From a virus: a stretch of DNA of 38,201 bases. Position numbers and translations under genes: made by a program. The first letter of the stretch is position 1. Every line of letters begins with the position of its first letter. Positions 5,189-38,011 of this stretch are shown here, one piece after another. The stretch is taken from the IMG/VR virus record IMGVR_UViG_3300024308_000046, positions 1 to 38,201 of that record. One strand, written 5' to 3'. The notes beneath the pieces were generated by a model, which saw only the letters and a program-made list of their open reading frames with translations, was not told the origin of the DNA and ran no database searches.

Positions 5189-5471
5189 GAGCCACCTCCA
5201 CCATCGCGTACACCGTCACATCCTCCAGGCCGACGCGGTCCACGCCGACCAGGCGCTTGATGCCGTCCAGGTTGGCGGGGTGGCAGTCGGTGATCAGCAC
5301 CGCCGGTGCCTCCTCGTACTCCCCGCGCAGATCCTGGAGCTTGGCCAGCAGCCCACCGAAGGAGCTGTAGAGGCCGGCCTCCAGCTCCACCAGCGGGCGG
5401 CCCTGGGCGGCCAGGCCCTGGCGCAGCTTGCTCGCCGAACGGCGAGCGGTATCGATGATCTCAACGCGCAT
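5181..5471 (-). CDS. Unknown small phage protein (96 aa)
   Basis: The 96-aa product (starting MRVEIIDTARRSASKLRQGL) is a mixed alpha/beta protein without membrane segments or Cys motifs. I do not recognise the family. The start at 5471 has GGGAGG upstream with good spacing; longer in-frame versions would read through the neighbouring zinc-ribbon gene in another frame and give low-complexity residues. It overlaps the methyltransferase start by 8 bp and the upstream gene by 11 bp, so it is translated with the modification module, perhaps as an accessory factor. Confidence 0.8.
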   Translation of the reverse strand: MRVEIIDTARRSASKLRQGLAAQGRPLVELEAGLYSSFGGLLAKLQDLRGEYEEAPAVLITDCHPANLDGIKRLVGVDRVGLEDVTVYAMVEVAHG

Positions 5472-5703
5472 AGCGGCGACCTCCCAGGGCCTTCTTGGCC
5501 TTGATGTTCTCCATGTAGGTCGCCCACTCGGCCGCCTTGCGCTTCTGGCGCAGGCGGCTGCAGGTCGCGTGCTTGCGGTTGGAACGGGGGCCGCCGCATA
5601 CGTCGCAGATGCTCGGCAGCTCCAGGCGGTGGCTGGCCATGGTCGGCCGGGTGCGCGGGGTGCTAGCCTTCGCCCCGCCAACATCGGGTTGATTCACTTG
5701 CAT
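5461..5703 (-). CDS. Small putative zinc-binding phage protein (80 aa)
   Basis: The 80-aa product has a polar N-terminus and a C-x2-C followed by a third Cys and a His (CDVCGGPRSNRKHATC, residues 33-48), then a very basic helix (RLRQKRKAAEW ... KAKKALGGRRYAR). This suggests a small zinc ribbon that binds nucleic acid. Start 5703 is preceded by AAGGAG, part of the 16-base leader also found in front of two neighbouring genes. It overlaps the next gene by 11 bp. Family not recognised. Confidence 0.75.
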   Translation of the reverse strand: MQVNQPDVGGAKASTPRTRPTMASHRLELPSICDVCGGPRSNRKHATCSRLRQKRKAAEWATYMENIKAKKALGGRRYAR

Positions 5704-5709
5704 GGTGCT

Positions 5710-5756
5710 TCTCCTTGGGGTTGGTCGGCGTCGGGGTGTTGCAGCACCCCGACGCC
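5710..5756 (-). promoter_or_regulatory. Intercistronic stem-loop cassette A
   Basis: A perfect 12-bp stem (5727-5738 with 5745-5756) closed by a six-base loop reading CTGCAA on the transcribed strand, followed by the ribosome-binding site AAGGAG (5710-5715) and ATG at 5703. Cassettes B and C have the same loop and leader but different, mostly compensating stems. It is likely an RNA element (processing, stability or protein-binding site) rather than a terminator, as no U run follows. Confidence 0.7.
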
Positions 5757-5771
5757 ACTCTCTCCGGCCGT

Positions 5772-6101
5772 TCAGGCCCAGTTGTGGCGCAGCTCAGCCC
5801 ATATCGCCTCGCCGTCCGCCACGTACTCGTGCACCTCCTGCTCCGGGCTGTTGTCCAGGCGCAGCACCGCGATGCAGTCGTCGAACAGCCCCGCATCCAA
5901 CGCCCGCAGGCGGGTCAGGTCGAAGGGAAAGGCCGCCCCGTTGTAGAGGCCGAGCAGGAAGCCCCCCACCACCGCGCTCTGCCCCGTATCGCGGCGTGCC
6001 ACCGGCACCAGGCGGCGCAGGGCCGCGACACCGGCCGCGCGGATGGCCGGCCGCTCCTCCTGGTAGCGGAACAGCTCGTTGATCACGTCTTTCTCTTGCA
6101 T
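5772..6101 (-). CDS. DUF7673-type phage protein
   Basis: A 109-aa acidic protein. The segment AALRRLVPVARRDTGQSAVVGGFLLGLYNG followed by FDLTRLRALD and DDCIAVLRL matches the conserved core (L-x2-L-V-x2-A-x2-DTGQS ... FLL ... FDLT) of a small phage and plasmid family I know as DUF7673; its function is unknown. The start at 6101 is preceded by AAGGAG in the shared 16-base leader. Stem-loop cassette B lies upstream and cassette A downstream, so the gene is isolated from its neighbours by RNA structures. Confidence 0.8.
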   Translation of the reverse strand: MQEKDVINELFRYQEERPAIRAAGVAALRRLVPVARRDTGQSAVVGGFLLGLYNGAAFPFDLTRLRALDAGLFDDCIAVLRLDNSPEQEVHEYVADGEAIWAELRHNWA

Positions 6102-6107
6102 GGTGCT

Positions 6108-6145
6108 TCTCCTCGGTCATGGTCCCGGGCGTTGCAGCGCCCGGG
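6108..6145 (-). promoter_or_regulatory. Intercistronic stem-loop cassette B
   Basis: A perfect 8-bp stem CCCGGGCG/CGCCCGGG (6124-6131 with 6138-6145) with loop CTGCAA on the transcribed strand, followed by the AAGGAG leader (6108-6113) in front of the gene starting at 6101. The loop and leader are shared with cassettes A and C. No U run follows the stem. Confidence 0.7.
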
Positions 6146-6164
6146 TGTAGTGGGGTGGGTTACA
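6146..6164. promoter_or_regulatory. Ogr-box-like dyad TGTA-N11-TACA in the early region
   Basis: TGTA (6146-6149), eleven G-rich bases, then TACA (6161-6164), the same architecture as the three late-promoter boxes. Its centre is 54 bp from the next start (6101). It overlaps the stop codon of the 43-aa gene. It could let the late activator stimulate the downstream genes, or it may be a chance match. Confidence 0.35.
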
Positions 6165-6291
6165 GCGTGGCCACCAGGGCCAGCAGCGCGTCGGTGCCGA
6201 CCAGGCCCAGGGCCACCAGCAGGGCCAGGGCGGTGCCGGTAACGGCCAGGGCCAGCGGCAGGCCTGGAGGGTTGAGGTCGTCGTTGTGCAT
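6160..6291 (-). CDS. Small hydrophobic membrane peptide (43 aa)
   Basis: A 43-residue frame starting MHNDDLNPPG, with one continuous hydrophobic segment (residues 11-43, Leu/Ala/Val-rich with one Asp), so a single-pass membrane peptide is predicted. The start is supported by the exact 16-base leader AAGGAGAAGCACCATG, which also precedes the genes at 5703 and 6101. It is flanked by stem-loop cassettes on both sides. Function unknown; it could be a holin-like, exclusion or inhibitor peptide. The size and strong RBS are seen; the role is not. Confidence 0.65.
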   Translation of the reverse strand: MHNDDLNPPGLPLALAVTGTALALLVALGLVGTDALLALVATL

Positions 6292-6297
6292 GGTGCT

Positions 6298-6337
6298 TCT
6301 CCTTGGGGTGGGTGCCTGGGCGTTGCAGCGCCCGGGC
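6298..6337 (-). promoter_or_regulatory. Intercistronic stem-loop cassette C
   Basis: A 9-bp stem with one A-C mismatch (6314-6322 with 6329-6337) and loop CTGCAA on the transcribed strand, followed by AAGGAG (6298-6303) and ATG at 6291. It follows the primase-helicase stop codon directly. Bases 6289-6313 also match cassette A's leader closely, so the whole cassette seems duplicated. Confidence 0.7.
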
Positions 6338-6340
6338 GGG

Positions 6341-9064
6341 TCAAACGAGCTGGAACAGCCAGCAGCGCACCGTCTTCGGTTGCCCTGCCATGTCCGTCGC
6401 TCGGATTGAGTTGATGGGCTTGTTCTTCTCGATGAACTTCGGGCTCTTGCTGGTCGGCAGCACCCGCTTCAGCTCCGTCAGGTTCGGCACCTGCTGGCGC
6501 TTGTTGGCCGCCATCTCCACGAACTCGTTGAGGTTGATGGCCACGAAGGCCGCCTTGCGCGAGTGGTTCAGCGCCCCGCCCGGCTCGCGCAGCGGCATGC
6601 CGTTGAGGTACTCCACCAGGTCCCAGAATTCGCGGACCATCGGGTGGTCGGAGTCGATCGCCCGTTGCCGCTCCAGGGCCATCGCCGCGATCTCCTCGTG
6701 CACCAGGTCGCGCTGCTCGTCGCTCATCGGCACCACCCGCTGCAGGCAATCCACCAGGCTGCGCAGCTGCGCGTGGTTCTTCGCGATGCGCACCGTGCGG
6801 ATCCCGGGCAGGGCCAGCAGCTGCTGCTCGTAGCCCGACGTGCGCTCATCGATGAGGGCCAGCAGGTCCGCCTCCGGCTGCAGCGCCTTGATCAGGAAGC
6901 CGCTCAGGCGCTCGATCGGCATGCGCTCCAGCTGCTCGGCAAAGCGCTTGGTCTCCGGCGTGTGGTGCGCCCGGGTCAGGTTCACGTGGGAGAGGCGCTG
7001 CAGCATCGCCTCGGAGGCGTTGATCGCGTTGTTCTGGCCGATCAGCAGCGCCGAACGGAAGGGGGGATCGTTGGTGTCGTTGCCGCCGTTCTTCACCCCG
7101 GTGCTGCGCAGGCCCCGGCCGTTGTACGCGCTCTTGAACTCGTCCCAATCGAAGTGCCGCACCGGGCCGCCATCGGCCTGCTCGCGGTCCGACTCGATCA
7201 GCACCGTCGGCAGGTTGGCCACCTGCGAGAGGATCCGCGCCCGCGCCGCCTGGGTGGACTTCGAGGGGTCGAAGCCCTCGTACTCCGAGCGGCCCACCAG
7301 CTTCCACAGGAACTCGATCAGCGTCGTCTTGCCCGCGCCCGCCTCGCCGATCAGCTCCATGAACAGGAAGGACTTCTGCACCTGGCGGATCTGCTCCGCG
7401 TACAACGCCCCCAGCCACCACGCCAGCACCACCGTCCCGCGCACCCCGAAGCACCGCCAGAACAGCTCGAACCAATCGGCCCGGTACTCCGTCAGGTCCG
7501 TATTCACATGCAGCAGCGGGCTCTGGCTCTGGCTCTTGATGCTCAGCTTGCCCACATCGAAGAAGTCTTCCTCGTTGCGCTGGTACACCCGGCCGCCGGC
7601 GATGGCCAGGTCGTTGAACACGTACACCTCGTGGTCCCGGCTGTAGCCGATCCAGTTGATGGTGTTCACCTGTTTCAGCGTGTCGAGCTGGCCCTCCAGC
7701 ATCCGCTCCAGCTGCTGCGGCGTACCGCTGAACAGCGCCCCGTTGCACACGTTGAGCAGGCGCTTCTTGAACTCCGGCGCCGCCGTGATCTGAGCCGCGG
7801 TGAAGGTCGCCTTCACCGTCGGCGCGTCCGGCCGCTCCACGCGGAAGTAGTACCAGGCCTCGTCCGTCAGCTCGTTGCGCATGAAGTACAGCGCCTGGAA
7901 GTAGCAATTGCCGATGCGTGAAACCGTCCCGCTCAGGCGCAGCGCCTTCTCCCGGCGCTGCTTGTCGTTGAGCAGCGCCGCCTCGTGGCTGTCGCTGCTC
8001 TCCAGCTCCTGGATGGCCTTCTCGTAGCGCTCCTGGTCCAGGCGGAACCAGTACAGGCGCTGGTTGAAGCTGAAGTGGAACTCCTTGCGCTCCTCCCAGC
8101 AGTACATCAGCAGGCCTTTCTCCTCGGCCGACTCCGCCAGCAGCAGGGCGCCCTGGTGGCGTGCCTGCTCCAGGTCCCGCTGGATGCGGTGCGCGCGCTC
8201 GGCCGCGTCCTCGATGAAACTCCACTGCTGATGCAGGTCGTTCCAATCCACCTTCTTCGCCGAGCGCTGCGCAATGACCGCCGCCTCGCAGGTAAAGCCC
8301 AGTGCCCGCGCCTCCTTGGCCCAGCGGCGCATGTTGGCCTTGGCCACCGGCTCGTTATCCAGCGCCCACACCAGGCGCGGCAGGCGCTTGTCCTGCGCCT
8401 CGCAGGCCTTTTTCAGCTGACGGACCGACTCGGCCGGGAAGGGCGCACTGCTCATCATCGAAACCGCCGCCACCTCGTTGTGCAGCAGCGCGATGGCGTC
8501 GAAGATCCCCTCGACGATCCACAGCTCCTCCACCTCCAGCGGGTTGACCGAAGGCGGGCACCACCACATGCCCCGGTAGCTCTCGCCCGGCTTGAAGCGC
8601 GCCTTCTGCTTGCCGAATCGCTCCGGCCGGTCGATCAGCCGCTCCCAGTAGCCGCCCTTCTCCAAGGCGAAGCGCACCGTCGCACTGCCAATGCCCAGGT
8701 CCCGGCTCCAGTAGTTCTCCTGGGTGTACCAGCCCTGCAGCAGCTCCACCCGAAAGCCCCGGGCAAACTCCAGGTAGGCCCGCGCCGTCGCGGTCGGGTC
8801 CTCGGCCGTGGCCGGCGCCTGCGCGCTCCAGTCGTTGAACAGGTCGCCGTAGAGATCCTTCACGTGGAAGCGCGCATTGCACTTCTCCACCCGCCCGCAG
8901 ATCAGCATCCAGGGCGAATCGAAGAAGGTGTACAGCGTCTTCTTGTGGCACGCCGGGCACTCGCCCTTGCGCATGTAGTTGGTGCTCGCCATGTGCTGCA
9001 GGCCGTAGTCGGTCTGGATACGGCGCAGCACCTCCTGGCGCAGCTTCTCCTGCATCTGGCTCAT
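6341..9064 (-). CDS. Phage replication primase-helicase
   Basis: A 907-aa protein that primes and unwinds phage DNA. The N-terminal zinc site uses C36, C39, C56 and C62 (GECPACHKK ... LICGRVEKC). A Toprim domain follows, with WIVEGIFDA (183-190) and ALDNEP (234-239) as the metal-binding acidic clusters. The C-terminal half is a superfamily 3/AAA+-like ATPase: Walker A GEAGAGKTT (573-581), a hydrophobic strand ending in ESD (624-626) as Walker B, and LLIGQNNA (673-680) as the sensor-1 region. This fusion replaces the P2 rolling-circle A protein, so replication probably differs from P2. The start overlaps the preceding gene as ATGA. Confidence 0.9.
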   Translation of the reverse strand: MSQMQEKLRQEVLRRIQTDYGLQHMASTNYMRKGECPACHKKTLYTFFDSPWMLICGRVEKCNARFHVKDLYGDLFNDWSAQAPATAEDPTATARAYLEFARGFRVELLQGWYTQENYWSRDLGIGSATVRFALEKGGYWERLIDRPERFGKQKARFKPGESYRGMWWCPPSVNPLEVEELWIVEGIFDAIALLHNEVAAVSMMSSAPFPAESVRQLKKACEAQDKRLPRLVWALDNEPVAKANMRRWAKEARALGFTCEAAVIAQRSAKKVDWNDLHQQWSFIEDAAERAHRIQRDLEQARHQGALLLAESAEEKGLLMYCWEERKEFHFSFNQRLYWFRLDQERYEKAIQELESSDSHEAALLNDKQRREKALRLSGTVSRIGNCYFQALYFMRNELTDEAWYYFRVERPDAPTVKATFTAAQITAAPEFKKRLLNVCNGALFSGTPQQLERMLEGQLDTLKQVNTINWIGYSRDHEVYVFNDLAIAGGRVYQRNEEDFFDVGKLSIKSQSQSPLLHVNTDLTEYRADWFELFWRCFGVRGTVVLAWWLGALYAEQIRQVQKSFLFMELIGEAGAGKTTLIEFLWKLVGRSEYEGFDPSKSTQAARARILSQVANLPTVLIESDREQADGGPVRHFDWDEFKSAYNGRGLRSTGVKNGGNDTNDPPFRSALLIGQNNAINASEAMLQRLSHVNLTRAHHTPETKRFAEQLERMPIERLSGFLIKALQPEADLLALIDERTSGYEQQLLALPGIRTVRIAKNHAQLRSLVDCLQRVVPMSDEQRDLVHEEIAAMALERQRAIDSDHPMVREFWDLVEYLNGMPLREPGGALNHSRKAAFVAINLNEFVEMAANKRQQVPNLTELKRVLPTSKSPKFIEKNKPINSIRATDMAGQPKTVRCWLFQLV

Positions 9065-37935: not shown

Positions 37936-37985
37936 TCTGGAGCGGGCGAAGGGAATCGAACCCTCGTCATGAGCTTGGGAAGCTC
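37936..37985 (-). repeat. attR: 50-bp direct repeat inside intact tRNA-Gly
   Basis: Identical to 221-270. It supplies the 3' portion of the tRNA from the anticodon stem to CCA, so phage integration restores a full tRNA gene. The right prophage border lies within or at the edge of this repeat. Confidence 0.93.
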
Positions 37986-38011
37986 AGGTAATGCCATTAT
38001 ACGACGCCCGC
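37938..38011 (-). tRNA. tRNA-Gly (anticodon CCC)
   Basis: A 74-nt tRNA on the minus strand. Acceptor GCGGGCG pairs with CGCCCGC, D arm contains ATAATGGCATTA, the anticodon arm is TGAGC-TTCCCAA-GCTCA with CCC at the centre, the T arm has GGTTCGATTCC, and CCA is encoded. It is the integration target. Its 5' half is host DNA and its 3' half phage-derived. Confidence 0.95.

Follow-up and report, generated by a model that had tools for sequence, protein, structure and literature searches.

The early operon and its hairpin-leader units

The window, by which we mean the whole 38,201-nt stretch of viral DNA analysed here, carries on its minus strand the early operon of a P2-like prophage, and it is in this operon that the three hairpins of interest sit. 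Upstream in this operon lies a Toprim primase/helicase gene (phrog_1139, 6341–9064), which we use as a family marker and do not count among the targets discussed below. It is followed in order by a 43-aa hydrophobic ORF (6160–6291), a 109-aa DUF7673 ORF (5772–6101), an 80-aa ORF of unknown function (phrog_10699, 5461–5703), hereafter slot 0, a C5 methylase and a PAPS-reductase-like ORF. A primase of Pseudomonas otitidis DSM 17224 matches that of the window at 99% identity. At one end the window has a tRNA gene (37941–38011) and at its other end a putative integrase-like ORF (375–1643), which would fit a tRNA attachment site. As side observations on the primase, its tblastn matches in several loci (L238, L302, L344 and others) span ∼3.5 kb and not 2.7 kb, which suggests that many of these primases contain an insert, such as an intein. 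The primase of OR820920.1 (Bacillus phage vB_BpuM-ZY1) matches at 45.2% identity, like that of Halomonas phage vB_HboP_4908 and in the same score range, so the Bacillus host label of this record looks doubtful.

The earlier note had placed in this operon three hairpins (5727–5756, 6124–6145 and 6314–6337) with the loop CTGCAA on the transcribed strand, and all three are found at these positions with this loop on the minus strand. The 16-base leader said to follow each of them, AAGGAGAAGCACCATG, does recur three times (5701–5716, 6099–6114 and 6289–6304, against 0.20 occurrences expected in shuffles), although the middle copy, GAGGAGAAGCACCATG, carries one mismatch. The stems differ from each other, as had been claimed, at 12 bp in the first hairpin and 8 bp in the second, but the third is made of 5 bp, a C.A mismatch and further outer pairs and does not form the unbroken 8–9 bp described. 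A chance origin of this pattern is very unlikely, and the same leader occurs together with a C[T/G]GCAA hairpin in many IMG/VR contigs. The exact leader is present in >120 IMG/VR stretches, many of which are related phages that carry it after such a hairpin, and the unit is indeed common across related phages of Pseudomonas. In a set of 106 unique elements, most copies keep the six inner stem pairs, using several pair types (99, 99, 99, 93, 86 and 78% for pairs 1–6), with strong stem co-variation, which agrees with the proposal that structure and loop are under selection. The suggestion that the hairpin-leader unit behaves as a cassette fitted to small early genes holds as well.

A predicted antisense RNA gene at slot 0

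The three hairpins are not equivalent but of two kinds, a distinction missed in the earlier note. The long copy is accompanied on the opposite strand by a predicted promoter, a structured 5′ domain and a U-rich tail, none of which is found at the short copies. When all copies are grouped by their downstream gene, those before slot 0 (128 copies) nearly all have stems of 11–14 bp, whereas the rest have mostly 5–10 bp. From these sequence features we predict a small antisense RNA (sRNA) gene, not described before, whose product of ∼90 nt has the long hairpin as its 3′ terminator. In the window this RNA would be ∼91 nt long (5676–5766, plus strand), with a structured 5′ domain, a segment complementary to the Shine-Dalgarno (SD) sequence and start codon of its targets (5697–5716, anti AAGGAGAAGCACCATGCAAG), a 12-bp terminator hairpin with the loop TTGCAG, the CTGCAA of the minus strand (5727–5756), and a tail (5757–5766).

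The predicted promoter is an extended −10 element, TGcTAGCCT (5661–5669, plus strand), located within codons 12–14 of the 80-aa ORF; no good −35 was seen for it in the window. In related P2-like phages an antisense TAnnnT lies exactly at ATG+34 in 152/170 unique slot-0 copies, as compared to 7/149 other copies. TGn precedes this −10 in 147/158 copies, and the conserved antisense block downstream of the slot-0 start codon reads TGnTAGCCT. The amino acids encoded by codons 12–14 vary (K/E/Q; A/H/L/P/N; T/N/S/I) while A...TA is kept. By computation the putative RNA has what is expected of a cis-antisense RNA, namely a promoter of its own on the strand opposite its target gene (the conserved extended −10 at ATG+34) and, by position and by pairing in the window, complementarity over the ribosome site of the overlapping gene.

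The hairpins had also been described as not being terminators. This is true of the mRNA strand, on which a terminator was rejected because there is no U run, but on the other strand the slot-0 hairpin has the properties of an intrinsic terminator of the predicted antisense transcript. Its tail averages 5.8 T of 10 on the antisense side and 0.5 on the sense side, and internal mismatches of the slot-0 stems, read on the mRNA strand, are 45 C.A/A.C against 3 T.G, such that the stems keep G.U pairs on the antisense strand. A GC-rich hairpin followed by a U-rich tract is found on this strand across the family; the tract of the window, ACTCTCTCCG, is weak, while it is T-rich in most relatives. Most other slots have neither the G.U bias nor the T-rich tail (slot 1, with 7 G.U against 5 C.A/A.C mismatches, shows no clear bias). 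A DNA-level element or cruciform was rejected, since no strand bias is expected of it and a strong one is seen; a YUNR-type recognition loop was rejected as well, as the loop does not fit.

The 5′ domain points to the same strand. Without the terminator it folds with a mean z of −2.32 (−17.1 kcal/mol) in the antisense orientation and of +0.55 (−4.7 kcal/mol) in the sense orientation, and the antisense fold is the more stable of the two in 40/40 representatives. The predicted RNA is 89–93 nt long in relatives and comprises a long 5′ hairpin in addition to the terminator hairpin, with two-sided changes in 10/16 pairs of the consensus. In the predicted fold of the window sRNA the anti-SD segment is partly paired.

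These observations bear on the idea of a translational operator, in which a phage or host protein, in the manner of a coat protein or of boxB/N, binds the sense CTGCAA hairpin and either represses translation or modifies transcription. A conserved hexaloop on variable stems near a ribosome site is what such an operator might look like, but it leaves the antisense promoter, the antisense-only 5′ fold, the G.U pattern and the T tail unexplained, as it does the co-variation of the leader and the T/G/A loop variation between near relatives (see below), and we consider it highly improbable. As the main reading, a sense-strand protein-binding hairpin was rejected, as the opposite strand is favoured by the mismatches and the T tail as well as by the promoter and the 5′ fold. 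The protein or RNase partner invoked in the earlier note is likewise not needed, as complementarity to the antisense sRNA accounts for the invariant loop and leader.

The slot-0 proteins share ∼15 N-terminal residues while their bodies belong to different families; unrelated bodies beginning with a sequence like MQVNQPxGGxxKATT are seen in the window (5461–5703) and in L106, L015 and L034. This is as expected if the DNA under the sRNA is constrained, and the protein bodies appear to have been exchanged behind this constrained start. Such swapping behind a common start, and the presence of different genes behind the same leader, would also suit a model in which the hairpin-leader units are nothing but stretches of recombination homology that shuffle small genes and have no regulatory role. 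Homology alone, however, requires neither the RNA pairing rules that these units follow (compensatory stems and the G.U strand bias) nor the promoter rules, and we give this model hardly any credence.

To return to the predicted sRNA, a covariance model (R1) built from 40 sequences was run on 80 held-out loci from Pseudomonas genomes and matched 66 of them at full length with 62–95 bits, each match being antisense and lying downstream of the primase. These loci had been fetched by primase alone and serve as the held-out check, as thresholds were set during exploration. A covariance search for further copies was the refuting test named in the earlier note, and this outcome strongly favours the element. 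R1 matched 1/18 genomes of the sampled genus and 3/274 of the class, and one of these few matches (L423) is weak and has neither the primase nor the promoter pattern. A rule applied ab initio, without any requirement on the loop, identifies the sRNA gene in 289/417 loci. The terminator loops of these 289 loci, read on the mRNA strand, are CTGCAA (100), CGGCAA (78), TTGCAG (66), CGCCAA (25) and rarer types. In the TTGCAG loci that we term type B (L134, L135–L237; e.g. L188 and L206) the slot-0 loop is inverted between similar arms, and each phage has one element and a small protein with a ..VHKTP..RLES.. motif. In Rfam only a tRNA of the whole window reaches its gathering score, with no match to c4 RNA or another family; at relaxed thresholds the best sub-threshold matches are Scr6925 and SymR (SymR to the hairpin with 19.6 bits, as compared to 61). 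The deposited annotations of Dobby, D14A and UFJF_PfPro hold no RNA feature at the sRNA locus, and no described sRNA of this kind from a Pseudomonas P2-like phage was found in the open-access literature.

Putative trans targets and their co-variation with the sRNA

Judged by complementarity, the other two hairpin-leader units appear to be trans targets of the sRNA. The leader of the 109-aa ORF (6099–6114, minus strand) together with the following CAAG is perfectly complementary to the sRNA over 19 nt, and that of the 43-aa ORF (6289–6304, minus strand) together with its flanks over 23 nt, in both cases across the SD and start codon, whereas the other listed gene starts of the window reach ≤7 nt. 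The CTGCAA loops of the hairpins that precede these leaders (6124–6145 and 6314–6337, minus strand) are in addition complementary to the terminator loop of the sRNA. Across phages, identity between target and slot 0 runs uninterrupted through the start codon for a median of 20.5 nt, as compared to 4 nt in control genes, and 101/104 targets but only 58/217 control genes start with ATGC. Full-duplex energies are crude and were left out of the main evidence.

Each contig holds a single loop type, as mixed types occur in 0/62 multi-copy contigs of a first set, 0/65 of a second, overlapping set and 0/27 of the held-out genome loci. The 178 phage loci of type A (CTGCAA or CGGCAA) contain 202 further hairpins upstream of ribosome sites (98 + 104), every one of them with the loop of its own sRNA; the 12 remaining loop types seen in sRNA genes are absent from these targets. 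Where the sRNA has a loop other than CTGCAA or CGGCAA, target hairpins of this sort are nearly lacking. At least 13 loop changes are found on the primase tree, and the target loop changed with the sRNA loop in 11/11 independent pairs (p = 0.00098; 8/8 in an earlier tree). The prophages L381 and L382 of P. citronellolis have an identical slot-0 stem and differ in one loop base (CGGCAA and CAGCAA, respectively), and the targets follow in each. Fewer loop letters are used than base pairing by itself would call for.

Leader variants are likewise kept throughout a phage (e.g. AAGGAGAAACGAC, AAGGAGAGACACC, AAAGGAGAGAACC). The mean distance between the 13-nt leaders of sRNA and target is 0.73 within a phage and 2.33 after permutation (minimum 1.78). 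For these statistics we used loci fetched by loop, BLAST similarity or primase and left out the collection fetched by the exact RBS, because it is biased for the leader. A tree-corrected test gave 4.6 changes in the same direction, 0 opposite and 3.4 unchanged (p about 0.06, not significant), making it suggestive only that the leader follows the sRNA on the tree.

The main alternative to co-evolution is that sRNA and targets, lying within a few kb of each other, were moved together by module exchange, which could mimic it; such linkage does not explain why the loop and the SD-start segment, and not the stems, are kept in common. In another model the sRNA controls just the overlapping slot-0 gene, and the other units are old copies of its leader captured as a ready-made translation start. 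All targets do lie near the sRNA gene, and many phages have an sRNA without a matching target (types TTGCAG, CGCCAA and others), as one would expect for control in cis only. Nevertheless we think this model unlikely, as the target stems differ from the stem of the sRNA and yet what the targets share with it is precisely the loop and the SD-start segment, which switch with the sRNA, and as the rare CAGCAA loop is present in all detected elements of L382.

Proposed mechanism and comparison with known systems

Taken from sequence comparison, the reading that we hold to be highly likely is that of an antisense sRNA ending in a long hairpin that represses its overlapping gene and, in trans, the matched cassettes. 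In this mechanism transcription would begin on the strand opposite slot 0, ∼28 nt into that ORF, run back over the start codon, SD and leader of slot 0, and end in the terminator hairpin. In cis the sRNA would pair fully with its own overlapping mRNA, while in trans its pairing with other early cassette leaders would be less full but still extensive (about 20 bp across the SD and start codon) and could be assisted by a loop-loop contact between its terminator loop TTGCAG and the target hairpin loop CTGCAA. The apical UUGCA of the sRNA, which modelling predicts to lie in an exposed loop, complements AUGCAA at the target start codon. Translational repression is the most likely effect on the targets: ribosome binding would be blocked, and as a consequence the accessory early genes would be held down together until their mRNA outruns the sRNA. 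Transcription of the sRNA, the sign of its effect, the loop-loop contact and the timing with respect to lysogeny and lytic growth are points that we infer.

It is also reasonably probable that these phages have a temperate-phage regulon, in which a single antisense RNA gene, placed within 40 nt at the start of one gene, governs a variable accessory set that genes join by way of the hairpin-leader cassette, with key-lock types particular to each phage. Most of the phage antisense RNAs known are single cis regulators. What the comparison of phages suggests here is an sRNA whose regulon is modular and co-evolving, present in hundreds of prophage loci of Pseudomonas, the P. aeruginosa phages Dobby and D14A among them, and the natural series of loop types (T, G and A) and leader variants is well suited to the study of how sRNA-target specificity diverges between phages.

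Several known systems resemble parts of this arrangement. An N-type site has a GNRA-like boxB loop beside boxA at the head of an operon that is served by an N-like protein; the present loop and its position, directly before the SD in several gaps, are unlike boxB. In type I toxin-antitoxin systems an antisense RNA that overlaps the beginning of a small gene neutralises a toxic peptide. An antisense RNA over a small-gene start is predicted here too, and short hydrophobic proteins occur among the predicted targets (one of 43 aa in the window), but many of the proteins encoded at slot 0 and at the targets are of other kinds than small membrane proteins. SymR is an antisense RNA opposite a toxin gene, with one cis target. 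Like SymR, lambda OOP and P22 sar, the predicted sRNA is short, lies opposite a gene and is antisense to that same gene; whereas each of those RNAs has one cis target, the present sRNA has extra predicted targets in trans and a co-evolving loop and leader.

Like OOP and sar, c4 is a phage antisense RNA with a cis target or a single target (PMC12197685). The c4 antisense RNA of P1/P7 acts on ant, its complementary segments, borne in loops, pairing around the ribosome site of the phage mRNA and blocking translation (PMC12197685). The likeness lies in a phage antisense RNA with complementary loop segments around a ribosome site; in contrast to c4, the present RNA is antisense to one gene and apparently matched to variable further cassettes, and there is no sequence family match.

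Finally, the SAS/ESAS elements of cluster K mycobacteriophages combine a repeated ribosome-site sequence and an upstream inverted repeat before many small genes, with a type-specific consensus (PMC3203893). They too are repeated start-site elements before small phage genes, but they belong to other phages and have another sequence: SAS/ESAS are defined by a 13-bp GGGATAGGAGCCC before starts and 17-bp imperfect inverted repeats (PMC3203893), whereas the leader here is AAGGAGAAGCACC and the stems are of 5–13 bp around a fixed 6-nt loop. Their function was left open by the authors and no antisense RNA was described, although three cluster K phages each have a single SAS on the complementary strand (PMC3203893). 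Our analysis suggests re-examining other repeated phage start-site elements such as SAS/ESAS, for which an antisense RNA at the complementary-strand SAS might account as the predicted sRNA does for the elements here.
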